Counted from the first letter of the stretch, positions 2,013-47,743 are shown. The stretch: 64,000 nucleotides of DNA from an uncultured Lachnospiraceae bacterium (GCA_947086895.1 CAMUAR010000013.1:1-64000), one strand, 5' to 3'. Program-made: numbers and translations. The notes: generated from the letters alone by a model not told the origin.

Positions 2013-2050
2013 GTTTCCTCACATTCTGCTGCGTAAGCGGCTTATATTTC
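2013..2050 (-). repeat. leader repeat copy 1 (hairpin plus SD)
   Basis: Just upstream of the phosphatase start, the minus strand reads GCCGCTTACGCAGC (able to fold as a small imperfect hairpin), then AGAATGTGAGGAAAC and the ATG. The same arrangement, with related bases, precedes the genes starting at 9242, 28368, 46187 and 46878. It supplies the ribosome-binding site. Confidence 0.5.
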
Positions 2051-7623: not shown

Positions 7624-7719
7624 TTTAATCTCCATTCTGGAGCGTTTTGGCAGCACAAATTTTAGATCTGTGCAAATCTATGACGCTCCGGCATAAATTT
7701 TCCTTATAAATAAAATTAT

Positions 7720-8877
7720 TTAAACTCCAAAAATTGCCATAAACACACCGGCAGCTACTGCTGTACCGATAACGCCGGCAACATTCGGTCCCATCGCGTG
7801 CATCAGCAGGAAGTTTGTCGGATCTGCCTCTGAACCTACTTTTTGTGATACGCGCGCTGCCATCGGAACTGCGGACACACCAGCAGAGCCAATCAGAGGA
7901 TTTACCTTTCCATGCGTCGCTTTGCACATCAATTTTCCAAACATCACACCTGCCGCTGTTCCAAGTGCAAACGCAATCAGACCAAGCGCAACAATCTTTA
8001 ATGTATCCCATTTTAAGAATGCTTCTGCGCTTGTCGTTGCACCGACGGAAGTTCCAAGCAAAATAACGACAATGTACATCAGAGCGTTTGACGCTGTCTC
8101 CGTCAACTGTTTTACAACACCGCTCTCACGGAACAAATTTCCAAGCATCAACATACCGACAAGCGGAGCTGTGGACGGAAGAATAAGTACGACAACGATG
8201 GTAACAATAATCGGGAACAGTATTCTTTCAAGCTTGGAAACCGGACGCAGCTGCTCCATCTTAATTTTGCGCTCCTCCTCCGTTGTCAACAGCTTCATAA
8301 TCGGCGGCTGAATAATTGGGACAAGCGACATATACGAGTACGCCGCGACCGCAATCGGTCCCATGTATTCTGTCTGCCCAAGCTTTCCGGCAAGGAAGAT
8401 TGAGGTAGGTCCATCCGCACCTCCGATAATGGAGATTGCAGCGGCTGCTTTATCGCCAAATCCCATTAAAATCGCCATTAAATAAGCTCCAAAAATACCA
8501 ATCTGAGCTGCTGCACCAAGCAGAAAGCTCGCTGGATTGGCAATGAGCGGTCCGAAATCGGTCATTGCTCCAACGCCCATAAAAATCAAGGACGGCAAGA
8601 TACTCCACTCATCCAGCAGATAAAAATAATGAAGAAGCCCACCCGCATGTTCAATGCCAAATTCATCCACATAAGGCGAAGCCATAATTGCCGGATACAT
8701 ATTTACCAAAAGCATACCAAATGAGATTGGAACCAGCAAAAGCGGCTCGTATCCCTTTTTGATCGCAAGATATAAGAAAACCAGTGCGACAAAGATCATC
8801 AGGACATTGCCCCAGTTCAAGGAGGCAAACGCTGTCTGTTTCGCAAGATTTTCCAATGTTTCAGCTACATAACTCAT
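7720..8877 (-). CDS. oadB: sodium-translocating decarboxylase beta subunit (OadB/MmdB/GcdB)
   Basis: 385 residues, highly hydrophobic with about nine membrane segments. The family signature GGADGPTSIF lies at 152-161, with Asp155 as the expected sodium-coupling acidic residue. A second conserved region near the C-terminus (FLLMHAMGPNVAGVIG) is also typical. The subunit decarboxylates carboxybiotin inside the membrane and moves Na+ outward. It begins 14 bp after the biotin carrier gene and is followed by the oadA-type gene after about 96 bp. The channel can serve any biotin-dependent decarboxylase, so the substrate depends on which carboxyltransferase is attached. Confidence 0.95.
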   Translation of the reverse strand: MSYVAETLENLAKQTAFASLNWGNVLMIFVALVFLYLAIKKGYEPLLLVPISFGMLLVNMYPAIMASPYVDEFGIEHAGGLLHYFYLLDEWSILPSLIFMGVGAMTDFGPLIANPASFLLGAAAQIGIFGAYLMAILMGFGDKAAAAISIIGGADGPTSIFLAGKLGQTEYMGPIAVAAYSYMSLVPIIQPPIMKLLTTEEERKIKMEQLRPVSKLERILFPIIVTIVVVLILPSTAPLVGMLMLGNLFRESGVVKQLTETASNALMYIVVILLGTSVGATTSAEAFLKWDTLKIVALGLIAFALGTAAGVMFGKLMCKATHGKVNPLIGSAGVSAVPMAARVSQKVGSEADPTNFLLMHAMGPNVAGVIGTAVAAGVFMAIFGV

Positions 8878-8891
8878 CTAGTTACCTCCAC

Positions 8892-9242
8892 TTAGTTCAT
8901 CGTTGCGAGTACTTCCCCGGCCTCCACACTTGCACCTACGGAAGCATTAACGCTCGCGATCGTACCATCCTGCGGCGCAACAATCTCATTCTCCATCTTC
9001 ATAGCCTCAAGCACAAGAACCGCCTCGCCCTTCTTGACAGCCTTTCCAGCTGCTGCTTTGATCGCAAGGATCTTGCCAGGCATCGGAGCTGTAATCTTAA
9101 CGCTTCCCTGCGCACCAGCTGCCGCTTTCGGAGCCGCCTTTGGTGCTGCTTTCGGTGCTGCTGCAACAGGTGCTCCTTCTGCCGCCTCATCAACCGTTAC
9201 ATCATAGACATTGCCATTCACTGTAATTGTATAATTTTTCAT
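8892..9242 (-). CDS. biotin carboxyl carrier protein of the membrane decarboxylase
   Basis: 116 residues from ATG 9242; GGAGG lies 5 nt upstream and overlaps an alternative Met four codons earlier. The biotinyl domain ends with the EAMKMEN motif (biotinylated Lys82). An Ala/Pro/Lys-rich flexible linker (about residues 24-45) joins it to a short beta-strand N-terminus. The biotin arm shuttles CO2 from the cytoplasmic carboxyltransferases to the OadB-type membrane subunit. It corresponds to MmdC, the GcdC biotin domain, or 1.3S of transcarboxylase. Confidence 0.95.
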   Translation of the reverse strand: MKNYTITVNGNVYDVTVDEAAEGAPVAAAPKAAPKAAPKAAAGAQGSVKITAPMPGKILAIKAAAGKAVKKGEAVLVLEAMKMENEIVAPQDGTIASVNASVGASVEAGEVLATMN

Positions 9243-9281
9243 GTTTTCCTCCATTTCGCCGTACAGGCATTTTAATTAAGG
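9243..9281 (-). repeat. leader repeat copy 2 (hairpin plus SD)
   Basis: Before the biotin carrier start, the minus strand reads TTAATTAAAATGCC, then TGTACGGCGAAATGGAGG. GCC/GGC can pair over a short loop, followed by the SD. It is closely similar to the copy before cmk (28369-28408), including the AATTAAAATGCC start. Confidence 0.55.
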
Positions 9282-9357
9282 GAACTTTGTTCTGCAAAAC
9301 AACACAATTTTTAATTCCCTCACTTCTTTTCTAATTATCTCTATTTTTATTATTGAC

Positions 9358-9789
9358 TCAGGCATTCTGCCATTTTGCTTTGCCCGCTTTGCGGATGCTT
9401 CGAACAACAAGACCCTCAACTGGAATTTCATTGCCCTGAGCTTCCTCATAGGCGTGAATTGCCGCGGTAATAACAGCGACAAGTTCCAGATCATCCGACA
9501 GTTCTTCCTGTGGTTCTTCTGCCTCTACCGGTGCTTCCGCCTCCACTTTCTTTGTCGCTTTGCCCTGCTCAAACTTATAGATATATTTAAATAAACTGAT
9601 AATCTTTGAAATAAGGAGCAGCACAAGGAACACGATAACAATGCCCATCAATGTGTTTAACAGAGCATATCCCATCGTCTCCCCAAAACTTCTTTTTTGT
9701 TCCGTCGCAGCCATTGTTGTCAACGGAGCTGCAAGCGCGGTAAAAAATGCGCCGAACGCCAGCCCTGCAATACCTTTGATTTTCTTCAT
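9358..9789 (-). CDS. OadG-family membrane anchor subunit
   Basis: 143 residues. An N-terminal hydrophobic stretch (about 1-28) could be a signal or first membrane segment; a strong membrane helix follows at about 39-66. A Glu/Ala/Pro-rich linker and a small C-terminal domain (DDLELVAVITAAIHAYEE), typical of OadG/MmdD-type subunits, complete it. In related pumps this subunit holds the carboxyltransferase, biotin carrier and channel together. The position between the two carboxyltransferase/carrier genes fits this. GGTGG lies about 7 nt before the ATG. Confidence 0.8.
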   Translation of the reverse strand: MKKIKGIAGLAFGAFFTALAAPLTTMAATEQKRSFGETMGYALLNTLMGIVIVFLVLLLISKIISLFKYIYKFEQGKATKKVEAEAPVEAEEPQEELSDDLELVAVITAAIHAYEEAQGNEIPVEGLVVRSIRKAGKAKWQNA

Positions 9790-9804
9790 AAACGCGCCAC
9801 CTCG

Positions 9805-11256
9805 TTAAACCGTGCCATGTTTTTTGTCCGGCAGGTTCTCTCTCTTTGTGAATAGCATCTCAAAGCCATACAGAAGGTGCTGCCTTAATGTTTCCGGTGC
9901 AAGAACAGCGTCAACATACCCCCTCTTTGCCGCCGAAGTCGCACTCTGACAAAGTTCGTCATACTCCGACGCCTTTTCTTTGGAAATCTTTGCAGCGCTG
10001 GCGCCCTTTAACTCATCCGCATACATAATCTGCACAGCAAGATTAGAATCCATAGTTCCAATTTTTGCACCCTCAAGCGCATAGACAAGATCCGCGCCGA
10101 TATGTTTGGAGTTCATTGTAATATACGCACTTCCATAAGCCTTTTCTGTAACAACATTGATCTTTGGCACGGTCGCATTTGCAAATGCGTAAGTCAGTTT
10201 TGCAGCAGCAATCGCAATGCTTCCCGCCTCCTGAACCGTCGCCGCATAGCCAGAGACATTGGTGAGGGTTAATACTGGGATATGAAATGCGTCGCAGAAT
10301 TTAACAAAATGCTCCGCCTTGTAGCAGCCTGCTGTTGTGAGCCTGTCCTCAAACTTAGCGGCGGTTTTTCCCTTTTCATCAAGAATTGCCGTGCGGTTTG
10401 CAATCGCTCCAACCGTCATGCCATTCAGCCGGATAAAGCCTGTTACCATTTCCTTTGCATAATCTTTTTTTACTTCAATAAGCAGTCCATTATCGGAAAT
10501 ATCTGCAAGCGCAAACGATGTATCAGTCAATTCTCCTGAAATATTATCAAGCTGACGGTTCAGATCATCCGTATCGGTCTCACCTGTCGCTTCTTCCGTA
10601 TTGTTGTATGGAAGTACAGCCATCAGCTCACGAATATTTTCATAGAGTGCTTCCTCATCTGAACATACAAAATCTGCAACTCCTTTTGCTGCCATATAAC
10701 TTGCTGCCGCAGTATCACATTTGTTCACATTGTTCCCATCCAATGTGTTTGGCGCATTGACAAACAACTTTGCATTCTTCTCTTCCATAAATACAAAATC
10801 ACTGATGGAAGCAAGAACTGCACTTCCGCCGCCGCAGTTTCCAACAATCGCGGTAATCTGCGGAATAATGCCGGACGCCTGCGTCTGCTTTAAGTACACA
10901 TCACCGAACGCTGCGAGCGCATCGGTAGCTTCCTGCAAACGCAGACCAGCGCAATCTACAAGCCCAATGACCGGCGCACCAACTTTAAGTGCAAAATCAT
11001 AGAGCCTTGTAATTTTTTTCGCGTGCATTTCGCCCATTGTTCCGTTTAAAACACTGGCATCCTGCGCGTAAACATACACAAGACTGCCGTGAATCAAACC
11101 GTATCCGGTGACTACACCATCGGAAGGTGCTTCCTTCCCCTGCAGGTTGAAATCAGTATTTCTCTTTGTGACCAAAGCGCCGATTTCAACAAAACTGTTT
11201 GCGTCAAGCAAGGCGGAGATTCTTTCCTTTGCTGACATTTGTGCCGTAGTACTCAT
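9805..11256 (-). CDS. MmdA/12S-like acyl-CoA carboxyltransferase subunit
   Basis: 483 residues from ATG 11256; GGAGG about 7 nt upstream excludes the longer open frame. It is a crotonase-fold carboxyltransferase of the acetyl-/propionyl-CoA carboxylase beta family. Visible elements are KERISALLDANSFVEIG at the N-terminus, NGTMGEMHAKKI, the glycine-rich oxyanion region GNCGGGSAVLAS, and the C-terminal half with AGSIAIAAAKL and AYGSAYITM. Close relatives are methylmalonyl-CoA and glutaconyl-CoA decarboxylase alpha subunits and transcarboxylase 12S. The NCGGGSAV region differs from canonical MmdA, so the acyl-CoA substrate is uncertain. First gene of the operon, 103 bp downstream of a good promoter. 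Confidence 0.85.
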   Translation of the reverse strand: MSTTAQMSAKERISALLDANSFVEIGALVTKRNTDFNLQGKEAPSDGVVTGYGLIHGSLVYVYAQDASVLNGTMGEMHAKKITRLYDFALKVGAPVIGLVDCAGLRLQEATDALAAFGDVYLKQTQASGIIPQITAIVGNCGGGSAVLASISDFVFMEEKNAKLFVNAPNTLDGNNVNKCDTAAASYMAAKGVADFVCSDEEALYENIRELMAVLPYNNTEEATGETDTDDLNRQLDNISGELTDTSFALADISDNGLLIEVKKDYAKEMVTGFIRLNGMTVGAIANRTAILDEKGKTAAKFEDRLTTAGCYKAEHFVKFCDAFHIPVLTLTNVSGYAATVQEAGSIAIAAAKLTYAFANATVPKINVVTEKAYGSAYITMNSKHIGADLVYALEGAKIGTMDSNLAVQIMYADELKGASAAKISKEKASEYDELCQSATSAAKRGYVDAVLAPETLRQHLLYGFEMLFTKRENLPDKKHGTV

Positions 11257-11358
11257 TTTCAGCCCTCCATTTTTTATTGTATTGGCTTTCTTCAAGCTTT
11301 CAATTTTTTACTTTCTATTGCTTGAAAATAACAGAAAAGCCAAATTTGTTCCAATTAT

Positions 11359-25738: not shown

Positions 25739-27685
25739 TTATTCCTCCGTTGACCCTTCTGAACCGGTGTCTGAGGATGCAAGAAGAGCCTTGATGCTCA
25801 AGCTGATCTTTTTGTCCTCACTGTTGAAATCAACAATCTTCGCTGTGATCTCCTGACCGATCTTCAATACGTCAGACGGTTTCTCCACATGCTCTCTCGC
25901 AATCTGCGAAACATGCAAAAGCGCATCAACACCCGGCTCAAGCTCAACAAACGCACCAAAATCTGTCATGCGCGCAACCTTGCCGGTCACCTCTGTGCCA
26001 ACTGCAAATTTAACATCTGCATCCTTCCAAGGATTTAACTCCGGGAACTTCATGCTCAGCGCAATCTTCTCGCCCTGAATATCCTTGATAAACGCCTTGA
26101 CAACATCTCCTGGCTTAAATACCTTCTTTGGATTTTCAACTCTGCCCCACGACATCTCAGAAATATGAAGCAGTCCGTCAGCACCTCCAAGATCGATAAA
26201 TACGCCGAAATCTGTAACATTTTTCACCGTGCCCTCAATCACGTCTCCTACATGGATCCTCGCGAACAGAGCCTCAGCCATCTCTTTTTTCCTCGCTACA
26301 ATAAGCTGTTTTCTGTCACCGATAATCCTGCGTCTCTTCGGATTGAACTCGCTGATCACAAATTCAATCTCCTGATCCTTGTACTTCTCAAGATCTCTCT
26401 CATACATATCGGACACAAGACTCGCAGGAATAAACACTCTGGACTCCTCCACAACAACACTAAGACCGCCGCCAAGCACCGCAGCAACCTTCGCCTTAAG
26501 CACTTCCTTGTTGTTGAAGGCTTCCTCAAGACGCTTGTTGCCTCTCTCTGCGATCAGCTTCTTGTAGGTTAAAAGAACCTGTCCCTCACCGTCATTCACC
26601 TTCAGTACTTTCGCACTCATTGTCTCGCCCTCTTTTACAAGCGTCCTTAAATCGACGTTCGGCGTATTTGTATATTCATTGCGCGTAATAATACCGTCAG
26701 CCTTATAACCGATGTTCAGGACAATCTCGTCCTCCTTTACGCCGATCACTGTGCCTTCAACTACCTCTCCGTTGTGTATAGTTTTTAATGACTCCTCCAG
26801 TAATTGTTCGAAATTCTCCTCTGACATGCTCCTTTGAACCTCCTTGATTATATTGTTTGGGGTGGATGCCCCTGCTGTAATACCTACGCTACGAAAAGAC
26901 TTCATCTTATTGAAATCCAGGTCACCAAGTGTCTGTATATAGTAAGTGTTCTCACATTCCCTTTTTGAAATCTCGAAAAGCTTCCTTGTATTTGAGCTTG
27001 ACCTTCCTCCGATCACAATCATGGCATCCGACTGCCGGGCGAGCACTTTTGTTTCCGCCTGACGCTCTTCCGTCGCGTTGCATATCGTATTTACAACAAG
27101 TATATCATACCTCTTTTTATCAATAATTTCAACTAAATCTTGAAATTTCTTGTAATTAAATGTCGTCTGCGCCACAATACACAGCTTTTCACCTTCTGGC
27201 AGTTTCAGATTTTCTGCCTCCTCGCGGCTTTCTAATGTTATCACCGGCGTTTTGCTCCATCCGATAATCCCCTGAACCTCCGGGTGTGTCTTATCCCCGA
27301 TCACCAGAATCTTAAAACCCTCTTCACTTTTTTCTCTGACAATTTGGTGTATTTTTTTTACAAATGGACAAGTCGCATCAAAAATCTCAAATTTCGGTTT
27401 CCCGTCCGCATCCTGAAAGCTTTCCAAAAGACGCTGTTCTGATTCGGGAATCCCGTGCGCTCGGATAATAATTTTGCCGCCAGCAAAATTCTGTGCTGCA
27501 GCAGCATGGTCAATCACCTGTACTCCCTGCTGTTTCAGCTTCTCTACAACCTGCTCGTTATGCATAATGGGTCCAAGCGTATACACATTTTTGCGGGGTT
27601 CTTCTTCCGCCTGACGATAGACCAGATCCACGGCCCTTTGAACGCCAAAACAAAACCCCGCGGATTTTGCCACAGTCACCTTCAT
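25739..27685 (-). CDS. ispH: IspH-ribosomal protein S1 fusion
   Basis: 648 residues. Residues 1-285 are 4-hydroxy-3-methylbut-2-enyl diphosphate reductase, with the three cluster cysteines Cys12, Cys106 and Cys202 and the conserved THPEV and HGIPES motifs. It makes IPP and DMAPP in the non-mevalonate pathway. From about 305 to 635 are four S1 RNA-binding domains; the last two carry clear TDFGVFIDL and TDFGAFVEL strands. The fusion is known in Clostridia and is not a frame error. The start overlaps the cmk stop by 4 bp (ATGA), showing translational coupling. Confidence 0.96.
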   Translation of the reverse strand: MKVTVAKSAGFCFGVQRAVDLVYRQAEEEPRKNVYTLGPIMHNEQVVEKLKQQGVQVIDHAAAAQNFAGGKIIIRAHGIPESEQRLLESFQDADGKPKFEIFDATCPFVKKIHQIVREKSEEGFKILVIGDKTHPEVQGIIGWSKTPVITLESREEAENLKLPEGEKLCIVAQTTFNYKKFQDLVEIIDKKRYDILVVNTICNATEERQAETKVLARQSDAMIVIGGRSSSNTRKLFEISKRECENTYYIQTLGDLDFNKMKSFRSVGITAGASTPNNIIKEVQRSMSEENFEQLLEESLKTIHNGEVVEGTVIGVKEDEIVLNIGYKADGIITRNEYTNTPNVDLRTLVKEGETMSAKVLKVNDGEGQVLLTYKKLIAERGNKRLEEAFNNKEVLKAKVAAVLGGGLSVVVEESRVFIPASLVSDMYERDLEKYKDQEIEFVISEFNPKRRRIIGDRKQLIVARKKEMAEALFARIHVGDVIEGTVKNVTDFGVFIDLGGADGLLHISEMSWGRVENPKKVFKPGDVVKAFIKDIQGEKIALSMKFPELNPWKDADVKFAVGTEVTGKVARMTDFGAFVELEPGVDALLHVSQIAREHVEKPSDVLKIGQEITAKIVDFNSEDKKISLSIKALLASSDTGSEGSTEE

Positions 27686-38045: not shown

Positions 38046-39764
38046 TTACTCGACCAACAGATAAATCATGGTCAGAACAAGCCCAAGCCCACATAACATC
38101 AATCCGTAAGACACACTTTTTGTAACGAGCTTCGCTGTACGTGTAGTCTCTCTTCTTCCAACAGCAAACATACGCACAAACGATTTTTCAATTGGTCTTT
38201 TTCTGCGAACAGTCAAATTCAGTGCCAAAACAAAGGTATCCATCATCCGTCCAGCAGCGTAAGTGAATCTTCCTCCGATATAAATATGTTCCCTCGTCTG
38301 CTTTTCCGCAAACAAAGTTCTATATAAAATCCAAGAAATTCCTGATACCAACTTATCTGCCAAACGAAAAACCACTGCAAGCAAAAACGGAAGAAACCGC
38401 ACAAAAAAAGGCCGGTAAATAACTTCTTCCAGGTCAAACCATGCCGGAAGCCGATTGATGTACAAGATATCTTCGCCTTCCTTTTTTCGCAGCAGAGGAC
38501 GAACGAACGCAAAATACAAAATAATCCCGGTTCCAATGGAAATTGCTGCTCCTGCCAAATTGCCCAATGAAAAATAGCGGATACTTTCTTCTGTCTCTAT
38601 ACTGCCTCCATAAAAAAAGCTTGCCGCGTGTTCTGCGACCGGCTGCATAAATTGTTTTGGAAACATTCCCATAATGAGAAAAAGTGCCGCCGGAATTCCA
38701 AGCAAACATTTTACTGGTACTGCAAGATCGCTTTCCTTCACGTTTTTTCCTGATTTTGGCACTTTATCGAAAAACAGCACGGTAAAAATCTTTAGCATAT
38801 AAGCAACCGTCATACCGCCGGAAAACAAAAACAGCACTTCCGCAGCTTTTAACAGCATTCTCTCATCTCCGAAATATCTTGCGCCAGTCTCCACAAGCGC
38901 CTCGTGAAGCAGCGTTTTGCTGATATAGCCGGAAAATGGCGGCATACCGCTAAGCGCAAGCATCGCAGAAACAAACGCCGCAAAAAAGAATGGCTTTCCT
39001 CTTCCAAATCCGCGAATACTTGTCAAGTCCAATCGATGAAGATTCATAAATACAACGCCTGCAAGTATAAACAGTACAAGCTTGATCATCGAGTGATTTA
39101 CGGCATGTAAAAATGCTCCGCTTACCGCCAGACCATCTTCTCCTTCCAGTCCCATCAGAGCAAGCCCAACAAGGATAAATCCCACTTGGGAGACCGACGA
39201 ACATGCAAGCGTCCGCTTTAAGTCGATCGAAAATACTGCAAGAACCGCGCCGGTAACCATCGTCGCTGTTCCAAGTACAAGCACAAGCCACCCAAAGGAA
39301 GCTTCCTTGTACAAGACGCTGCCGGAAAGCAAAATTATCCCAAATATTCCCGCTTTTGTAAGCACGCCGGAAAGCAGCGCGGACGCTGGCGCCGGTGCTA
39401 CAGGATGCGCTTTTGGCAGCCATATATGCAGCGGAAACATCCCCGCCTTTGCGCCAAAGCCAAACAGCATCATACAGCCCGCCGCAAATAATCCCTCCCG
39501 ATTCTCCACTGCGCTGCACGCAGCTTTGAGCTTGTCAAATTCCAATGTCCCTGCAAGATAATAAAGCAGAAACATCCCTGCAAGCATCACCATACCGCCA
39601 AGTACGGATACCGCAAGATAAGTGCTCGCTGCTCGAATCGCTTCTCTTGTCTCCTCCTGCACCACCCATACATAAGAAGAAAACGACATCAACTCAAAAA
39701 ATAAAAATGTTGTAAAAAAATCTGCTGAGAGAAACACTCCTGCCGTTGCTCCAAGGGTCAGCAT
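38046..39764 (-). CDS. antiporter-like subunit 4, C-terminal piece (after in-frame stop)
   Basis: 572 residues from the ATG at 39764, most likely the main part of a NuoL/MrpD-type protein whose N-terminus is the piece at 39774-40112. It has the TM5 glutamate (FLFFELMSFSSYVWVV), the TM7 lysine (FGFGAKAGMFPLHIWLPKAH) and about 12 membrane segments, plus a C-terminal extension of about 170 residues. The two pieces are in the same frame, separated by TAA and three codons, with no good SD before this ATG. It could be a pseudogene, a reinitiating split gene or a sequence error. Confidence 0.75.
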   Translation of the reverse strand: MLTLGATAGVFLSADFFTTFLFFELMSFSSYVWVVQEETREAIRAASTYLAVSVLGGMVMLAGMFLLYYLAGTLEFDKLKAACSAVENREGLFAAGCMMLFGFGAKAGMFPLHIWLPKAHPVAPAPASALLSGVLTKAGIFGIILLSGSVLYKEASFGWLVLVLGTATMVTGAVLAVFSIDLKRTLACSSVSQVGFILVGLALMGLEGEDGLAVSGAFLHAVNHSMIKLVLFILAGVVFMNLHRLDLTSIRGFGRGKPFFFAAFVSAMLALSGMPPFSGYISKTLLHEALVETGARYFGDERMLLKAAEVLFLFSGGMTVAYMLKIFTVLFFDKVPKSGKNVKESDLAVPVKCLLGIPAALFLIMGMFPKQFMQPVAEHAASFFYGGSIETEESIRYFSLGNLAGAAISIGTGIILYFAFVRPLLRKKEGEDILYINRLPAWFDLEEVIYRPFFVRFLPFLLAVVFRLADKLVSGISWILYRTLFAEKQTREHIYIGGRFTYAAGRMMDTFVLALNLTVRRKRPIEKSFVRMFAVGRRETTRTAKLVTKSVSYGLMLCGLGLVLTMIYLLVE

Positions 39765-39773
39765 TGTAAAGCA

Positions 39774-40112
39774 TTAATACCGCCGCACATTTTCATGATG
39801 CCGCATATAGCCCACAGAAAATACACAAGCCGCCATCCACATAAAACTGAGAATCAAAAGGTATACCGCCCGAAAGCCGTCCATTGCAAAGGAAAGTCCA
39901 AATCCACCAAATTCCTCAACACGATACCAAAAGCCACCGGAAAATGAGGATATAAAAAGACAGGCAACAAGTATAAATTCCATTGCTGCAGCAGTAATCA
40001 GCACTCTTCCCGCCCACTTTAACGCTTCTTTTCCAGCAAAAAGATACGGCACAAACGCCGCGCATACAGGCAGGAGAATCAACACGATCAACCAAGCATT
40101 TTCTTCCATCAA
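39774..40112 (-). CDS. antiporter-like subunit 4, N-terminal piece
   Basis: 112 residues with three membrane segments, ending at a TAA (39776-39774) just where homologous proteins continue into the first long proton-channel helices. The residues on each side (GYMRHHENVRRY, then CFTMLTLGAT after the stop) read as one continuous family segment. Starts 15 bp after the previous antiporter gene. Confidence 0.7.
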   Translation of the reverse strand: MMEENAWLIVLILLPVCAAFVPYLFAGKEALKWAGRVLITAAAMEFILVACLFISSFSGGFWYRVEEFGGFGLSFAMDGFRAVYLLILSFMWMAACVFSVGYMRHHENVRRY

Positions 40113-40127
40113 TAAAGCCCTCCTAAC

Positions 40128-41606
40128 CTATATAAGCCCGTTTGAAACTTTTGTCAAAAATTCTGCAACCGGCTTTGCAAAAACTCCGAATATCACAGCC
40201 ATTATCGTAAAAAACAAAATTGGCAGCCGCATCCGCCACCCTGGGTCTGACGCTTGAAAAAAAGTTTCTTTTTCCTCCGCGTCTTTTGTTGGAAATACCG
40301 CTCGCAAAAGAAAGCTAAACAGGTAAGCCGCCGTTAAAAATGCTGAAATAATCAAGGTAAACATCCCCGCAAGCGGAAGATTTTTTGACGCCGATACCGC
40401 GGCAGTGCCAAGATTCCACTTGCTCACAAAACCGGACAATGGCGGAACTCCAATCAGCGCAAGACTGGAAATAAAAAAGCAAGTTACGACAAACGGCATT
40501 CTTTTTCCAATCCCCTCCATACTGTTGATATATTCCAGACCAGAGCGATGTAAAATTGCGCCGACACAGCAAAAAAGAGAAATTTTGATAAATGCATGCA
40601 TAATAAGATGCGTCATGCCTCCTGCCATCCCGACAGGCGTCATCAGCGCCGCGCCAAAAACAATGTAGGACAAATTGCTGATCGTCGAATAGGCGAGCCT
40701 TCGTTTTAGGTGTGGTTCCTTTACTGCCCGAACAGAACCGTATAAAATCGTCACCATTGCAAGGATAAGTATAATATCCTGCGCATAAGTTCCTGCAAGC
40801 AGGTTTGTTCCATAACTGTAATACGTAATTCGAATAATTGCAAATGCTCCCGCCTTGACCACTGCCACTGCATGCAGCAGCGCAGTAACCGGGGTCGGCG
40901 CGACCGCCACCCTTGGAAGCCACGCATGAAACGGAAAAATTGCCGCTTTCACACCGAAACCTAACACCGCAAGAACATAAACTCCACGCAGCAAGTTTTC
41001 TTTTCCTGCAATGCTGTTTGCATCAAACACGCCGCCATAAGCAAAATCCATCGTCGTCCCAAGCTTATATACAAAAATAAACCCGATAAATGCAAATGCA
41101 GCTCCCCCGATGGAAAAAAGCATATACCGCTGTCCTGCCTGCACTGCTTTTTTATCCATGCCATGCATAACAAGCGGCATTGTGACAAGCGTAAGCATCT
41201 CATAGAACATATACATGGTCATTAGGTTTCCAGCAAACGCAATCCCAAGCGTCACGCCAAAGGTCGCTGTGTAGAAACTAAAAAATGCCGTGTCTCTCTC
41301 CTCGTGTTCCATATACTCAAACGCATATAGTGTTGCAAACGGCCAAAGTACTGCAACCACCGCCGAAAATACAATGCCAAGACCATCAATATGAAGCATC
41401 ACAGCAAGTTCGCCTGCAAGGTTAAGTACTAAAAAATCTTCGCTTGGACGATGAAACATCATCCATACAGCAAATGCAGAGGTCAGAATTGTAACGATCT
41501 CAACATAGATATTTCTGGCGCGCCGGTTCCTAAAGTGCAAAAGCGGCAGCAGCGCTCCCATAATCACAGGAAACGCAATCGGCAATAAAATAATATACTT
41601 TGACAT
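40128..41606 (-). CDS. proton-conducting antiporter-like subunit 3 (MrpD/NuoN type)
   Basis: 492 residues, about 14 membrane segments, PF00361-type. TM5 glutamate in YMFYEMLTLVTMP and TM7 lysine in LGFGVKAAIFPFHAWLP are both present, as needed for proton or sodium translocation. TISNLSYIVFG and the late LAGMFTLIISAFLTAAYLF are typical. 15 bp separate it from genes on both sides. Part of the nine-cistron Mrp/Mbh-type operon. Confidence 0.92.
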   Translation of the reverse strand: MSKYIILLPIAFPVIMGALLPLLHFRNRRARNIYVEIVTILTSAFAVWMMFHRPSEDFLVLNLAGELAVMLHIDGLGIVFSAVVAVLWPFATLYAFEYMEHEERDTAFFSFYTATFGVTLGIAFAGNLMTMYMFYEMLTLVTMPLVMHGMDKKAVQAGQRYMLFSIGGAAFAFIGFIFVYKLGTTMDFAYGGVFDANSIAGKENLLRGVYVLAVLGFGVKAAIFPFHAWLPRVAVAPTPVTALLHAVAVVKAGAFAIIRITYYSYGTNLLAGTYAQDIILILAMVTILYGSVRAVKEPHLKRRLAYSTISNLSYIVFGAALMTPVGMAGGMTHLIMHAFIKISLFCCVGAILHRSGLEYINSMEGIGKRMPFVVTCFFISSLALIGVPPLSGFVSKWNLGTAAVSASKNLPLAGMFTLIISAFLTAAYLFSFLLRAVFPTKDAEEKETFFQASDPGWRMRLPILFFTIMAVIFGVFAKPVAEFLTKVSNGLI

Positions 41607-41621
41607 GATAAGCCTCCTCGA

Positions 41622-43082
41622 TTATACGATCGAACTGCAAATTGCCTCCAAAAAACGCAAAAGTCTGCCTGGGAACATACCAAAACCAACCGCCAGCACG
41701 CTGAGAACTGTTATTGGAACAAGCATTTTCCAAGATGCCTCGCATTTCTTTCGCTCTTCTTTTCCCCCTGGAAAAAAGCCGGAAAATGCAGCTGGAAATA
41801 AGTAAGCGGCTGTAAAAACTGCGCTGGCAATCAAAGCCGCCGGTCCTGCGTAATGTATCCACGAAATCCCTGAGGAAAGCGCGCCCTGCGCAAGATACCA
41901 CTTACTTAAAAACGCCGAGGTTGGCGGAATGCCGACCAGCGTAAAAGAAGCAAGCAGATACATCCACATTGTCACCGGCATCTGCTTTCCGATTCCGCGC
42001 ATCTCGTCCGCCCGTGTTTTTCCTGTTTTATGCACAATTGCACCAGCGGATAAAAAAAGCGCATTTTTTGCAAAGGAATGAGCGACAATATGAAAAAGCG
42101 CACCGAGAAGCTCTGTTTTTCCCATTAAAAAGATGCCAAAAAGTATATAAGAAACCTGGCTGATTGTTGAATAGGCAAGCCTTCTTTTCAACATTTGTTC
42201 TCTTGATGCAATTACAGACCCCATCATAATCGTGCCGAGTGCAAGTGCGCAAAGTGTATACTGTACCCATGTTCCTGAAAGAAAATTTGCTCCCACGATA
42301 TAATAAATAATTCGAATAATCACAAGAACGCCCATTTTTGTTACATTGCCGGAAAGAAGCGCCGACGCTGGGGCTGGTGCGATCGGATGTGCCGAGGGAA
42401 GCCAGCTGTGCAGCGGAAACAGCCCCGCTTTGCTGCCAAATCCGACAACGGCAAGAAAACATCCCAAAAAAGCAAGTTCCTGCTGCTGTTTGGAGAGAAT
42501 GAAATCCGTTCCTCCTGCTTGAAACTCCATGCCAAACCCGCTTCCCGACAACAGCAAAAATCCAGCAAGTCCAAGAAACGATCCGCCAAGGGAGTAAAGC
42601 AAAAATTGATATCCTGTGCGAACTGCCATTTTGGTCTGCTCATAAATAATAAATGGTAAAACGGAGAGCGTCATCAGTTCATAAAACAGGTACATTGTTA
42701 TAAAATTACCGGAAAAACAAAGCGCTGTAATCGCCCCGATCGAAATAAGAAAAAACGCCTGATAGCTCTTTGCATCCTTGTTTTCCATATATTCTGAAGT
42801 GTAGACTGCCGAGAGAAGCCACATAATTGCCGAGAGAACTCCAAACAGCATGGACAGCCTGTCCGGGCGCAAAAGAAGCACTGCGCGCCCCGTCATAAAA
42901 AACATTCCAAATTCATACCCGCCGCTTCCCACAATAAGGACTAGAATAAGCTCCACTGCCGATATAACAGCGACATACAAAAATCTAGCTTGTTTTTTCG
43001 GCAGCAGTTTTTTCCAAAAAAGCAGTACTCCCGCAAATACTGGGAACAAAATCGGCAAAAGCAATATGATATCCTGATTCAT
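41622..43082 (-). CDS. proton-conducting antiporter-like subunit 2 (MrpD type)
   Basis: 486 residues, 14 predicted membrane segments. TM5 Glu in YLFYELMTLSVLP, TM7 Lys in VGFGSKAGLFPLHSWLPSAH, and TISQVSYILFG. Residue pattern close to the fourth subunit (FGFGAKAG), suggesting duplication within the operon. 15 bp before subunit 3. Confidence 0.92.
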   Translation of the reverse strand: MNQDIILLLPILFPVFAGVLLFWKKLLPKKQARFLYVAVISAVELILVLIVGSGGYEFGMFFMTGRAVLLLRPDRLSMLFGVLSAIMWLLSAVYTSEYMENKDAKSYQAFFLISIGAITALCFSGNFITMYLFYELMTLSVLPFIIYEQTKMAVRTGYQFLLYSLGGSFLGLAGFLLLSGSGFGMEFQAGGTDFILSKQQQELAFLGCFLAVVGFGSKAGLFPLHSWLPSAHPIAPAPASALLSGNVTKMGVLVIIRIIYYIVGANFLSGTWVQYTLCALALGTIMMGSVIASREQMLKRRLAYSTISQVSYILFGIFLMGKTELLGALFHIVAHSFAKNALFLSAGAIVHKTGKTRADEMRGIGKQMPVTMWMYLLASFTLVGIPPTSAFLSKWYLAQGALSSGISWIHYAGPAALIASAVFTAAYLFPAAFSGFFPGGKEERKKCEASWKMLVPITVLSVLAVGFGMFPGRLLRFLEAICSSIV

Positions 43083-43132
43083 TTTCCTTCCCCTTTTTAT
43101 GCGTATTGCAAAACGGTATCATTTCCTAAAGG

Positions 43133-44626
43133 TCAGGAGAATGTACCAAGCCCCGTCTGAATTGCGCCTTCAATCAGATTTGACCAAGTTCCAAGAAATA
43201 TGTTCAGCAATATAAAGCACAAAAGCGCAATTTCCATTGTTTTTGGAGCACGGTAAGTTGACTGATCAAAATCTGTATATTTGTGCGGGGTATAAATGAT
43301 AATGACTGCGCGGATAAAATAAACTGCATTTAAAATTGTACTGATCGCCAATGCAACCATCGCAACTTCCATTTTTATATCGGATGCTGTAAGCGCCGCT
43401 TCAGCAAAATATACTTTCGATGTAAATCCAGCAAGCAATGGGATTCCGACCATAGAAAATGCGCCGACCAAAAACGCGATCCCAGCGAGACGATTTCGGT
43501 AACCAGCACCTTTTAACCCGGAAAACTCTTTGCTGTCGCCCGACACATCCGACAGTCCCTTCGCCGCGATAAAAAGCATTGATTTGGAGGCGGCATGAGA
43601 CATAATATGAAAGATCGCCGCAACTGTCCCCATCGACACAGACAACCCGATTCCCATATAAATATATCCAATCTGCGCCACGGAGGAAAATGCGATCAAC
43701 CTGCGCATATCCGTCTGGTAGATTGCCATAACAGAACCTGCAATCATACCTGCAACTCCAAAGAAAAACAAAATATTTGTCACTTTATGATCCAGAATAA
43801 ATTCAAATCCGAAAACGCGGTAAAAAACTTTAAACAGCAGGAAAATATATCCTTTTGAAACAAGGCTCGACAAGATGCCAGAGGAAGAAGGCGTAGAATA
43901 GCTGTACGCATCCGGCAGCCAGGAGTGAAATGGAAACAGCGCGCTTTTGATCGCCAGACCTACGCTTATCAGCCCCATCGCCACCGTGAGCGGCAGCTGA
44001 TAATTTCCAGTTCTTGAGAGTACTTCAACTCTTCTGTGAATGTCCACCATCAAAAGATGGCCTGTTACATCATACAAAATCGCAATGCCAATCAGCAAAA
44101 GACCAGATCCCACCAAGCTCATAATCATATATTTTGCCGCTGCCACAAGCGTATGCCCATTACTTCTGCTCATAATCAGCGCTCCAGCCGCAATTGTGTT
44201 GATCTCCACAAAAACATAAGCAGTAAACAAGTCATTTGTGTAGATCAGCGCAAGCAGAGAGGCAAGCATCAGATCAATCATTGTAAAATACAGATTGCTT
44301 TTTGCATCTTCGATATCAAGGGCAATATAATGTTCTCCGCCAAGCACGGATAAAAACATAATGGCGCAGAAAAATACTGCAATCACTGCCTCCAGCATTC
44401 CGACCCGAATCTCATTTCCCCACGGCGCCGGAAAATGCCCCATCATATAAGTATACTGCCCTTCTTTCGCCACAAAAGCAAGAACGGCAATGTTCATAAA
44501 GAAAACCGCCCCAATCAGAAAAAGGCTTAAGCGTTTTGCCTGTTTTGCCCCAAAAACAGAAGAAACAACACCGCACATCAAACACATAACAATATTAAAT
44601 AACGGAAAATTACGTACTATGTCCAT
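43133..44626 (-). CDS. mrpD: proton-conducting antiporter-like subunit 1 (MrpD/MbhH type)
   Basis: 497 residues, about 14 membrane segments. TM5 Glu in AYVFVEINTIAAG, TM7 Lys in GLAIKSALFPFHSWLPDAYSY, and SSVAQIGYIYMGIGL. The VEINTIAAGALI form and its position straight after mrpC (7 bp) match MrpD/MbhH, the conserved antiporter subunit of Mrp and Mbh complexes. Confidence 0.9.
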   Translation of the reverse strand: MDIVRNFPLFNIVMCLMCGVVSSVFGAKQAKRLSLFLIGAVFFMNIAVLAFVAKEGQYTYMMGHFPAPWGNEIRVGMLEAVIAVFFCAIMFLSVLGGEHYIALDIEDAKSNLYFTMIDLMLASLLALIYTNDLFTAYVFVEINTIAAGALIMSRSNGHTLVAAAKYMIMSLVGSGLLLIGIAILYDVTGHLLMVDIHRRVEVLSRTGNYQLPLTVAMGLISVGLAIKSALFPFHSWLPDAYSYSTPSSSGILSSLVSKGYIFLLFKVFYRVFGFEFILDHKVTNILFFFGVAGMIAGSVMAIYQTDMRRLIAFSSVAQIGYIYMGIGLSVSMGTVAAIFHIMSHAASKSMLFIAAKGLSDVSGDSKEFSGLKGAGYRNRLAGIAFLVGAFSMVGIPLLAGFTSKVYFAEAALTASDIKMEVAMVALAISTILNAVYFIRAVIIIYTPHKYTDFDQSTYRAPKTMEIALLCFILLNIFLGTWSNLIEGAIQTGLGTFS

Positions 44627-44633
44627 ACTATTA

Positions 44634-45017
44634 TCATTCCTTGAACTTTTCTCTTTTTACAAGCATTGTGATTCGGTCGATATCAAGTGTGTGATATCTG
44701 CGGTACAGCCGGATGGTAAGCGCGAGCATCACCGCTGTCACACTCACGGATACAACAATTCCAGTAAGCACCAGCCCGGAGGGAACGGGATTGATATAGT
44801 CTTCCACCAGCCTGGATGCATCCGGTCCATCCGGCACTGGCGCCACCCGTCCGGCAATATAACCTTTCGCCGCTAAAAACAGATAGACAGCAGTATCCAT
44901 AATATTAAATCCGATAATCTTTTTTATCATATTTCGGTGAAGCAGAAGCGCCGTAAAACCGATGCCGAACAAAATCACCGCAACCGCCTCATAGTAATTG
45001 TTCCATAAGTTTCCCAT
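44634..45017 (-). CDS. mrpC: Mrp antiporter subunit C (NuoK-like)
   Basis: 127 residues from ATG 45017 (GGAGG 5 nt upstream). Three membrane helices with the NuoK/MnhC pattern: RNMIKKIIGFNIMDTAVYLFLAA and PSGLVLTGIVVSVSVTAVMLAL (the conserved ALxLTxIVI-type region). Forms part of the ion path in Mrp and complex I. Confidence 0.93.
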   Translation of the reverse strand: MGNLWNNYYEAVAVILFGIGFTALLLHRNMIKKIIGFNIMDTAVYLFLAAKGYIAGRVAPVPDGPDASRLVEDYINPVPSGLVLTGIVVSVSVTAVMLALTIRLYRRYHTLDIDRITMLVKREKFKE

Positions 45018-45140
45018 TACATCCTCCAACCACAAAACCGAACCTACATCAGACCCTATTCTTTCTTTTATCAAAAATTTCAATCCTATATCAATACAGA
45101 TAAAGAATTTGAAGGTATTTTTCTTTTATTCCCAAAATTT

Positions 45141-46187
45141 TCAGATTCCGCCCTTTCGAAAGATTGCATAAAATGTGTACATTGTACATGCCACAACACA
45201 GCCGACGCAGATATTAAGCGGCAGAATCAATCCGCTGCTAAGAATATCTCCTGCCCTTCCAAGTGGAATTCCACTGTCCAAATGATTTGCTCCACAGTAA
45301 AAGGAATAACATTTTGCAACAGAGTAAAACAGCAAAGAACACAATGTAACAACAGAAAATGTCCGGTAGGTAAAAAATTGCTCTGCTTTCTCAAAGCCAA
45401 ACGCATTTAAATACAAAATCAATCCTGCGCCGACAATCGCGCCGCCCGAAAATCCCCCTCCCGGTGAAATATGTCCGTTTAAAATCACGTAAATACCAAA
45501 AATAATAATACATGGCACAAGGAAAAATGCCGCTTTCTGGAGAATCTTATCATTTTTCGGCTCAAATTTCCGGTCGTCCTCCTCAGCCGCAAGCTTTGCC
45601 TGCGTCGGCTTTCCGTCCTTTCCGTGATCAATGCGCAATAAAATCAGAACTGTACACGCCGCGATAAATAAAACATGTGACTCTCCAAGCGTGTCGAACG
45701 CGCGGTAATCCAGTATCATACCAGTTACAATATTGACTGCTCCCGTTTCTTCCTGCCCCTTTTCGATATAGCGGTCAACTACCTCGCTGCTGTTTGCCGG
45801 AGTGTCAGCAGAGCCAAATTCAGGAAGTCTTGATACTGTCACAAGCAGTACAGTGATAATAGAAATGCAAATCAAAGCGGAAATCAAGTGATAAAAACGC
45901 CGAAACAGTTTCACTCCCTTTGTGTCCGGCCAATAATCATACTGATTTAACGCGCGGCTGTACTCTCTTTCTGCCTGTTCTTTCCAATATTTCTGGTAGC
46001 TCGCACGCCATTTTTTCTTATTTAAGAAAAACTCATTTCTCTCCTCCTCAAGCTGTTCCATCCGCTCCCCGATCGCTCTCGCTGCATCCTTGCGCTTCTG
46101 CCAATCCTCCGGCAGCTCTTCCCCGTTGACAAAACGCAGAAATCTGCGCCATTTTGTCATTTCATAATCCGGTCTGATCTTACTCAT
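45141..46187 (-). CDS. MbhE-MrpB fusion subunit
   Basis: 348 residues from ATG 46187. A charged cytoplasmic N-terminus (1-85) is followed by an MbhE-like region (about 90-190) with NIVTGMILDYRAFDTLGE, then an MnhB domain (about 215-345) with NGHISPGGGFSGGAIVGAG. This combines two subunits, MbhE and MbhF/MrpB, in one chain. Both are membrane subunits of Mrp-type complexes. GAGAGGA about 5 nt before the ATG is in leader repeat copy 4. Confidence 0.88.
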   Translation of the reverse strand: MSKIRPDYEMTKWRRFLRFVNGEELPEDWQKRKDAARAIGERMEQLEEERNEFFLNKKKWRASYQKYWKEQAEREYSRALNQYDYWPDTKGVKLFRRFYHLISALICISIITVLLVTVSRLPEFGSADTPANSSEVVDRYIEKGQEETGAVNIVTGMILDYRAFDTLGESHVLFIAACTVLILLRIDHGKDGKPTQAKLAAEEDDRKFEPKNDKILQKAAFFLVPCIIIFGIYVILNGHISPGGGFSGGAIVGAGLILYLNAFGFEKAEQFFTYRTFSVVTLCSLLFYSVAKCYSFYCGANHLDSGIPLGRAGDILSSGLILPLNICVGCVVACTMYTFYAIFRKGGI

Positions 46188-46228
46188 CTTTCCTCTCATT
46201 CCGCCGCACAAATTTTTTAGCAGCTAAT
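46188..46228 (-). repeat. leader repeat copy 4 (hairpin plus SD)
   Basis: On the minus strand GCTGC, a 12-nt loop and GCGGC can pair (one G-U), followed by GGAATGAGAGGAAAG and the ATG. The GCGGCGGAATGAGAGGAAA block is shared with the cmk copy. Confidence 0.58.
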
Positions 46229-46559
46229 CAAGATTCGTTCTACTGACAGATTCCTCTTCGGATACCGTGATGCTCTCGCCGTCCAAAAACGCCTCCTCAT
46301 CCTCCTGGTACACGCCTCTTTTCTGATCCATTGCATGAATTTTTTTCAGCGTCACAAAAAATAAAACGCTTGTGACTCCAGCGCCAACCGCCGCCTCCGT
46401 AATCGCAAGATCCGGGGATTCCAACAACATCCAAATAATGCTCATAACAAGACTGTACGACATAAAAATGGCGATGGATGCCAGCAAATTTTTGCTGACA
46501 CAGGTTGCCAGCGCGCAGACAATCAAAAAAATAAGCAGAATCGCTTTAAAAATCGACAT
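46224..46559 (-). CDS. MbhD/DUF4040-type subunit
   Basis: 111 residues. Three membrane segments and the conserved SPDLAITEAAVGAGVTSVLFF of MbhD/MrpA-C-terminal domains. A hydrophilic acidic C-terminal tail. Overlaps mrpG by 14 bp. In canonical Mrp this piece is the C-terminus of MrpA; a separate gene is the Mbh arrangement. Confidence 0.92.
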   Translation of the reverse strand: MSIFKAILLIFLIVCALATCVSKNLLASIAIFMSYSLVMSIIWMLLESPDLAITEAAVGAGVTSVLFFVTLKKIHAMDQKRGVYQEDEEAFLDGESITVSEEESVSRTNLD

Positions 46560-46878
46560 CGTCCGCCACCTCGCATTCTTTTTTTACCTGTTGTTTATTT
46601 GTTGTAATCTCCAGACGTGCAAGCAGATGTGATGCCACAGGACTCGCCATCCAAAAAAAACAAATTAAAACAAACATTTTTAAAGAAGTAAAATTCCAGC
46701 CGTTTAAAATAATCAATCCAAACAGCACAAATAAAATACCGAGCGTATCGTTGAGCGCAGCGGCATGCATTCGGTTCAGCACAAACTTAAATTTATAATT
46801 TCCAATCACAGCGATGCAAGCGACCACAAGCCCAGCCAAGATAAAAACTGCGCCGACAATAAACCGAAATATCTCCAT
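46546..46878 (-). CDS. mrpG: Mrp antiporter subunit G
   Basis: 110 residues. Three membrane helices and the MnhG signature RMHAAALNDTLGILFVLFGL. GGGG about 8 nt before the ATG lies in leader repeat copy 5. Confidence 0.93.
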   Translation of the reverse strand: MEIFRFIVGAVFILAGLVVACIAVIGNYKFKFVLNRMHAAALNDTLGILFVLFGLIILNGWNFTSLKMFVLICFFWMASPVASHLLARLEITTNKQQVKKECEVADDVDF

Positions 46879-46920
46879 CTATTTTCCCCCACATTCCGCC
46901 ATACAGCGATTTTTGATTTC
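46879..46920 (-). repeat. leader repeat copy 5 (hairpin plus SD)
   Basis: On the minus strand CGC, a short loop and GCG, then GGAATGTGGGGGAAAATAG and the mrpG ATG. Weaker hairpin than the cmk copy but the same order. Confidence 0.5.
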
Positions 46921-46932
46921 AACACAATTATC

Positions 46933-47268
46933 TTACTCTTTTTTGATTGCGGCAAGTTCTTCCTGCTCTTCCCGCGATAAATTTTTTTCTTCCTTTTCGC
47001 GATGCACACCCATATAGATCTTTACCAGCACAACAACCGCCAAAAAACTGATCATCGCATAAATCATCGCAACGTCAACAAGAAATCCCTCCTGCATCTT
47101 TACAGCCAATATAACAATAATCATCATTGTCATTGTGCCAATCATATTTACAGCGACAATGCGGTCTGCAATCCGCGGTCCAATAATCGAACGAATCAGA
47201 CAGAAAAAACAGCATAACCCAAGCACCACAATAACCGCGGTTAAAAATACATCATATAGTTTTTCCAT
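46933..47268 (-). CDS. mrpF: Mrp antiporter subunit F
   Basis: 111 residues from ATG 47268 (GGAAG upstream; an in-frame Met 16 codons earlier lies within mrpE). Three membrane helices with the MrpF core GPRIADRIVAVNMIG and a charged Lys/Glu-rich tail. Overlaps the mrpE end by 17 bp. Confidence 0.92.
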   Translation of the reverse strand: MEKLYDVFLTAVIVVLGLCCFFCLIRSIIGPRIADRIVAVNMIGTMTMMIIVILAVKMQEGFLVDVAMIYAMISFLAVVVLVKIYMGVHREKEEKNLSREEQEELAAIKKE

Positions 47269-47743
47269 CTTTCTTTTCTTCCTTTCCGCTCTCAAACCTC
47301 TCAAGCCTTTTAACAAATGTACAGTCTGAGATTCCTTCTCCTAACTCCTTGTCCAGACAGTGGATCAGATACTTGTCCCCCTCAAGCGAGACTGTGATTG
47401 TCCCCGGAGTTAATGTGATCGAATTTGCAAGCACTACCCGCTTTGTATCCCCCTCTAGTTTTGTTTGAAACTGAAGAAGTTTCGGTTCAATAATATATTT
47501 CGGTGATACTATAAGTTTTATCACGCAAAAATTTGCTTTTATAATCTCGCACAATAAAAGTGCAATGTACGCGATGCCGCCGAATATATTTTGATAAACG
47601 TTTCGCTCCTTTTTTATACTGTAATCCATATGTCTGCACAAAAATAAAAATACAAGCGCGGAAACAGCAATGCCAAACAGTACAATCTCCACTGTGACCC
47701 TGCCATTGAAAGCAACCCATAAAGCAAACATCAGCAATAACAT
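47252..47743 (-). CDS. mrpE: Mrp antiporter subunit E
   Basis: 163 residues. Two N-terminal membrane helices, then a cytoplasmic domain containing the MrpE/MnhE signature ANSITLTPGTITVSLEGDKYLIHCLD. First gene of the operon; GGGAG about 9 nt before the ATG, and a consensus promoter about 140 bp upstream. Confidence 0.94.
   Translation of the reverse strand: MLLLMFALWVAFNGRVTVEIVLFGIAVSALVFLFLCRHMDYSIKKERNVYQNIFGGIAYIALLLCEIIKANFCVIKLIVSPKYIIEPKLLQFQTKLEGDTKRVVLANSITLTPGTITVSLEGDKYLIHCLDKELGEGISDCTFVKRLERFESGKEEKKDGKTI

Follow-up and report, generated by a model that had tools for sequence, protein, structure and literature searches.

We begin by considering the systems closest to a ten-gene operon for a probable Mrp-type cation/proton antiporter, which lies on the minus strand (47743 to 38046) of a 64,000-nucleotide stretch of DNA from an uncultured Lachnospiraceae bacterium (GCA_947086895.1, CAMUAR010000013.1:1-64000); the whole stretch is called the window below. 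Group 3 Mrp systems are defined by the lack of a full-length mrpA and by an mrpD that occurs in one or several copies (PMC8415708). The stand-alone Mrp of P. furiosus (mrpEFGBB'CD; PMC8415708) belongs to this group, and at low pH it imports Na+ and exports H+ in the service of pH homeostasis (PMC8415708). The operon studied here shares with it the absence of a full-length mrpA and of a redox module, as well as the gene order E-F-G-B/B'-C-D. The P. furiosus complex, for which Na+ has been shown to be the coupling ion, has however one large antiporter-like subunit where our operon encodes four (named D1 to D4 in the order of their genes), has no MrpA-N-like subunit, and fuses MbhD with MbhE, whereas here MbhE is fused with MrpB.

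The membrane arms of MBS and MBH (MbsA-H' and MbhA-I; 6u8y, 6cfw) provide the closest solved homologues of D1-D4, C, MbhD, F and the MbhE-MrpB protein. The operon is collinear with MbhA-H, and MbsE of MBS is the same MbhE-MrpB fusion. Compared with these complexes, the operon lacks the J-N redox module, carries two to three more large subunits, and has Asn in place of the MrpF Asp and Asp in place of the Thr/Ala of MrpG. The canonical group 1 and 2 Mrp complexes (6z16, 7qru, 7d3u) have all their MrpA-G domains represented here, with D4 as the MrpA-N-like subunit and MbhD and MbhE as the MrpA C-terminus, but in our operon MrpA is in two parts, there are two additional MrpD-like subunits, the MrpC His pair is absent, and the histidine switch is found in D3 instead of in the lateral-helix subunit. 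Many stand-alone operons of other Clostridia have three large subunits (e.g., L188, L198-L200, L230, L244, L259), and they show the same order without redox genes, the same MrpF/MrpG exchange, and D1 and D4 subunits orthologous with ours. They differ in having one middle subunit where we find D2 and D3, MbhE and MrpB are usually separate, and many of them lack the histidine of transmembrane helix (TM) 8. Unusual mrp clusters have already been noted both in anaerobes and in cyanobacteria (PMC5703873), and a stand-alone group 3 Mrp with multiple MrpD is known. In the open-access literature we found no description of a stand-alone Mrp with four large subunits, of the MrpF/MrpG exchange, or of the separation of the histidine switch from the lateral helix, and these three features are apparently new.

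The operon is very probably a stand-alone group 3 Mrp, that is, a secondary antiporter exchanging Na+ (or K+) for H+ with no redox module to drive it. This reading rests on the gene content, the conservation, the ancestry of the subunits, the positions of the key residues and the absence of a redox partner of a known family. E, F, G, B and C stand together with MrpD-type subunits in one operon, the equivalents of E706, D792 and E796 of MrpA are present, and each of the four large subunits has the GluTM5/LysTM7 pair, all of which marks the Mrp (CPA3) family. MbhD and MbhE are separate from D4, and four PF00361 genes are found, as the definition of group 3 has it. An initial annotation of the locus had held that neither Mrp nor Mbh/Mbs fits; this was half right, since the existing group 3, which includes stand-alone members, accommodates the operon. 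The operon therefore encodes every part of an Mrp, with MrpA divided into two pieces, and a further two MrpD-like subunits.

The gene order is E-F-G-MbhD-(MbhE+MrpB)-C-D1-D2-D3-D4, all on the minus strand. MrpE/MnhE (47252..47743; 163 residues; PF01899, 1.3e-29) has P113 and H128, which are kept in at least 113 of 115 homologues. It is followed by MrpF (46933..47316; 127 residues; PF04066, 5.4e-14), which has N57 at the position of the Na+-path Asp, by MrpG (46546..46878; 110 residues; PF03334, 2.8e-20) with an additional Asp, D44, and by an MbhD-type subunit (46224..46559; PF13244, 1.9e-19) that forms part of the MrpA C-terminus. The MbhE-MrpB fusion (45141..46211; 356 residues) matches both PF20501 and PF04039 (MnhB), and next to it is the MrpC/NuoK-like subunit (44634..45083; 149 residues; PF00420, 5.7e-23). 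The fusion protein begins with a charged N-terminal extension of about 100 residues (45900-46211), variable in length, whose RF-x-RWV-x-GE-like start is conserved across the lineage. The initial annotation took MbhD and MbhE as hallmarks of a hydrogenase-type complex. Both are indeed present, but this link was overstated: they are homologues of TM17-21 of MrpA and are present in every Mrp (PMC8415708, PMC7419157), and as a detached C-terminal part of MrpA they do not mark a hydrogenase.

The large subunits follow, each matching Proton_antipo_M (PF00361) at E < 1e-49. D1 (43133..44626; 497 residues; 2.5e-52) adjoins C and is MrpD/MbhH-like, with MbhH (6cfw_H) as its best solved homologue; D2 (41622..43082; 486 residues; 1.6e-50) is the sister of D3 (40128..41606; 492 residues; 4.2e-57), which carries the TM8 histidine H245; and D4 (38046..40112), an MrpA-N/NuoL-like distal subunit with a lateral-helix region, is present as two open reading frames (ORFs), of which the downstream one gives the match (7.5e-55). 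The pairs of TM5 Glu and TM7 Lys noticed in the initial annotation are E141/K227 in D1, E135/K218 in D2, E136/K220 in D3 and E140/K222 in D4, and they are invariant among the 108-120 homologues of each subunit, with no loss. LysTM8 and LysTM12 are nearly invariant, and K404 of D1 is invariant in the same way as E141 and K227.

A comparison of the operon order in relatives, as the initial annotation proposed, finds it complete in 105 of 120 related loci. A contig end cuts 13 more, and the remaining two are irregular, one in a fragmented assembly and one with a subunit undetected. Chance is excluded as the source of this order, since the ten genes are complete in so many loci and merely cut by a contig end in the 13. 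When an operon-bearing genome is taken as one with a match to the MbhE-MrpB fusion at E < 1e-70, the bearers amount to 60 of the 299 Lachnospiraceae genomes sampled. Among the bearers are Hungatella hathewayi WAL-18680, Schaedlerella arabinosiphila and Fusibacillus kribbianus, and also some contigs labelled Oscillospiraceae or Butyricicoccus. Flanking genes do not recur as partners, none being found in more than 8 of 41 loci.

The next question is how the operon came to have four large subunits. We use a tree of 118 large-subunit sequences made by a quick method, from which only the D1, D4 and D2/D3 groupings are taken, as long branches make the deep placing relative to NuoL/M/N and Hyf unsafe. 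D1 groups with the first, and D4 with the last, large subunit of stand-alone operons in other clostridial families, operons that mostly encode three such subunits. D2 and D3 make up a single group (support of 99 in the Shimodaira-Hasegawa-like approximate likelihood ratio test, SH-aLRT), and the histidine-bearing middle subunits of L188 and L196 fall outside it, so the fourth large subunit is a duplicated middle subunit. The lineage-specific duplications expected in the initial annotation are thereby found for D2/D3 but not for the other large subunits. In two operons of another family (L260, L267), an E-F-G cluster has six large subunits nearby, and the order of MbhE and C is rearranged.

The two products of this duplication differ in the TM8 histidine. 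H245 of D3 is found in 113 of 113 homologues with the same H-x5-K spacing as in canonical MrpA, while the TM8 of D2 and of D4 has no histidine, that is, no counterpart of His248 of B. pseudofirmus MrpA, a proposed proton switch whose Ala mutant is inactive (PMC9568556). The spacing was compared because MAFFT had placed a gap at TM8, which concealed this histidine in canonical MrpA, NuoL and HyfD. Since the histidine is in D3 and the lateral-helix region in D4, the switch and the lateral helix belong to different subunits. Several relatives with three large subunits have no TM8 histidine at all.

We turn our attention to D4. The content of the operon is as the initial annotation gave it, with every named subunit found in its place, except that the reading frame of D4 is interrupted. 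The gene is cut by a TAA at 39774-39776, with the frame identical on either side, into an ORF of 112 residues (39774-40112, TM1-3) and an ORF of 572 residues (38046-39764). Homologues read through at this column and mostly have Tyr there, and D4 is intact in relatives including a genome of the same genus (G173, locus L035). Because the stop sits where relatives mostly have Tyr, a single lesion disrupts D4 in this assembly, and its source is either a mutation or a sequence error. While it is conceivable that this genome's copy of the operon has lost its function or is in decay, with D4 a pseudogene and the remainder on its way out, as an in-frame stop at a Tyr position would agree with, all the other genes are open with every invariant residue kept, the lesion is a single one, and the invariant residues of D4 downstream of it are intact. 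The relatives keep D4 open, and in a draft assembly the stop could be an error. We consider decay unlikely.

The fold of D4 was predicted using an intact relative (L106), with a predicted local distance difference test score (pLDDT) of 80.2. The model matches residues 1-591 of MrpA (7qru_A) with a Z of 46.9 over 565 residues and a root-mean-square deviation of 2.6, the match spanning residues 7-587. Past TM15 there is a partly amphipathic, low-confidence helix of about 125 residues and then a final hydrophobic helix; residues 588-688 are modeled with low confidence, with a predicted helix at their end. This C-terminus is as expected for a lateral helix with TM16, although it is just the beginning of the lateral helix for which the model gives good support. 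As modeled, D4 is an MrpA-N/NuoL-type subunit with a 14-TM core, TM15 and the start of the lateral helix.

The cation path can be traced by alignment with the solved complexes. E55 of MbhD aligns with E69 of MbhD (6cfw_D) and E706 of MrpA and is present in 87 of 87 homologues; D173 and E177 of the MbhE-MrpB protein (best solved homologue: the equivalent fusion MbsE, 6u8y_E) align with D792 and E796 of MrpA, and both acids are present in all 119 homologues. In the MrpC-like subunit, as aligned with 6u8y_G, 6cfw_G and 6z16_C, D63 is placed as D37 of MbhG (119/119), and Tyr67 takes the place of His40 of MrpC (115/119). The proposed Na+ path includes an Asp of MrpF, D35 in A. flavithermus and D38 in B. 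pseudofirmus, whose conservation has been called invariable (PMC7419157, PMC9568556). Here the position is N57, and it is Asn in 108 of 108 homologues; the alignment with 6z16_F, 7qru_F, 6cfw_B and 6u8y_B, all four of which have Asp, is gapless. MrpG, on the other hand, has D44 in all 116 homologues, aligned with T48 of 6z16_G, a position at which the solved MrpG homologues carry Thr or some small residue.

The two changes go together. Among 181 operons with both genes, 18 combine the MrpF Asp with a non-acid in MrpG and 163 combine a non-Asp in MrpF (N, G, A, L, S or T) with Asp or Glu in MrpG, with no exceptions, and the 8 redox-linked operons examined all show the first combination. In a tree of the D1-type subunits, however, the MrpF and MrpG changes occur once each on the same branch, so that the match counts as one event and gives no independent contrasts. 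After the exchange the residue in MrpF continued to change and the acid of some MrpG turned to Glu, but the MrpG acid was never lost. From this pattern we infer that the cation-entry carboxylate moved from MrpF to MrpG. The Asp of MrpF, otherwise a mark of Mrp (CPA3), is missing here, and we take this as a variant since the residue is outside the published group definition. A third type of stand-alone Mrp-like operon was seen in other clostridial families (L201, L203, L204, L239, L261, L263), with the MrpF Asp kept, Leu in MrpG at the exchange position, and 2-4 large subunits of a different clade.

With the MrpF Asp and the MrpC His ligands substituted, and with a Ca2+/H+ activity reported for an Mrp complex (PMC5703873), it could be argued that the cation moved is K+ or Ca2+. 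The core acids for loading and exit (the equivalents of E706, D792 and E796) are invariant, however, and the cell appears to have a Na+-based economy (see below), and we find a cation other than Na+ improbable.

Alternatively, the operon could dock a redox module encoded elsewhere, as the initial annotation suggested next to a stand-alone, multi-channel antiporter. The genome, a 3.75-Mb draft in 138 contigs that is 96% complete, was searched family by family, with positive controls matched in each of the redox and DabA searches. It contains exactly four Proton_antipo_M genes, all in the operon, and has no match for the NiFe/49-kDa large subunit (PF00346), the NuoB-type Fe-S subunit (PF01058), the NuoH-type anchor (PF00146), Rnf/Nqr D-E or DabA (PF10070). 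The families that would mark an energy-converting hydrogenase, MBH or MBS (PF00346; PF01058 with PF00146) are all absent from the genome, which agrees with the initial observation that the locus encodes no NiFe subunits, and redox genes do not adjoin the operon in this genome or in its relatives. A CO2 uptake complex (DabAB) was rejected, as the search of the genome found no DabA.

Across the family, a 49-kDa-type gene is found in 37 of 299 genomes but in only 4 of the 60 operon bearers, where about 7 would be expected by chance. In those four (G010, G150, G211, G298) the redox genes belong to Ech or Mbh operons that each encode an antiporter subunit themselves (L223, L222, L215, L214). Rnf shows no association with the operon, being present in 53 of 60 bearers and in 264 of 299 genomes overall. 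On these genome and 299-genome searches we reject docking for the known families, and it is the stand-alone antiporter that they support. It is very unlikely that the operon is the membrane arm of a redox pump with its soluble half (of the NiFe/NuoB-D type, or a ferredoxin/NADH dehydrogenase from some other family) at another locus. By sequence the nearest relatives of the module are the MBH/MBS membrane subunits, and true Mbh operons occur in the same family (L214-L218), but the partner genes are absent, 56 of the 60 bearers have no 49-kDa-type gene, neither Rnf nor any neighbour is associated, and the redox-linked operons keep the MrpF Asp that this clade has lost. A redox partner of a family not yet known may conceivably exist.

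Four points weigh against a working stand-alone Mrp. D4 is interrupted in this genome, and therefore the complex may be defective or three-channel unless the stop is a sequence error. The MrpF Asp and both MrpC His, which bind the cation in the A. flavithermus Mrp, are replaced, and therefore the ion or the ion path may differ. Antiport is deduced from sequence for every member found. Finally, a partner could lie in the missing ~4% of the draft genome of this strain, an objection tempered by the same-genus genome G173, which likewise has no 49-kDa-type gene.

Taking the operon as a stand-alone Mrp, we infer the order of its subunits in space, its transport activity, its cation and the direction of exchange as follows. 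The driving force would be the membrane potential and an ion gradient. The cation would travel through E, F, G, MbhD, MbhE-B and C, with entry at E/F/G, a loading site at MbhD E55 leading on to the C/D1 junction, and exit at D173/E177 of MbhE. D1, adjoining C, would couple H+ to Na+, and D2 and D3 would lengthen the Lys/Glu charge relay, which would run in the order D1-D2-D3-D4. D4 would be outermost, with its C-terminal helix running along the other large subunits. The extra large subunits may provide more H+ per Na+ or added relay steps. The role that we prefer is control of cytosolic pH in acid-producing fermenters whose economy is Na+-motive, with Na+ moving in and H+ moving out; the reverse exchange under alkali or salt stress would be an alternative. 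A more specific proposal, possible but on balance somewhat doubtful, is that this clade moved the entry carboxylate from MrpF to MrpG, that its four-subunit members split the His switch (D3) from the lateral helix (D4), and that the result exchanges Na+ for H+ at a high ratio, with four proton modules coupled together, compared to the three of complex I, and no redox drive.

Whether each antiporter-like subunit passes one proton or all share one exit, and which route Na+ takes, is debated for complex I, MBH and Mrp. The operon and its relatives offer natural variants for testing such models: four large subunits without redox drive, three-subunit relatives, a duplication with the His switch kept in one copy only, and the exchange of Asp between MrpF and MrpG. 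The proteins of the operon match models named for Mrp, hydrogenase-4 or NADH dehydrogenase subunits, and the analysis gives a likely ion-exchange role to an operon found in about one fifth of the sampled Lachnospiraceae genera.

Other genes of the genome and the window concern the sodium economy of the cell. The c-subunit of the F-ATP synthase (L224, 6435-6716; G000:C49) has the motif GPGVGQG...VAETTGLY, which we take to be the Na+ ligand pattern as in the Ilyobacter tartaricus c-subunit, suggesting that the ATP synthase is Na+-driven. The window that contains the antiporter also has a Na+-pumping decarboxylase region (6211-11295), with an OadA-type alpha subunit (6211-7656), a decarboxylase beta subunit (7720-8877; TIGR01109, 1e-142) and an MmdA-type carboxyltransferase (9805-11295). 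Because the cell has both the Na+-type c-subunit and the decarboxylase genes, a Na+ gradient should be available to it. Elsewhere in the window, a protein with ferredoxin, [FeFe]-hydrogenase-like and PAS regions (2042-3748) adjoins a SpoIIE-like phosphatase (852-2012), and the two (852-3748) look like a sensory hydrogenase-type pair. One long ORF at 25739-27685, as read by eye, has an IspH-like region followed by repeated S1-type RNA-binding regions.

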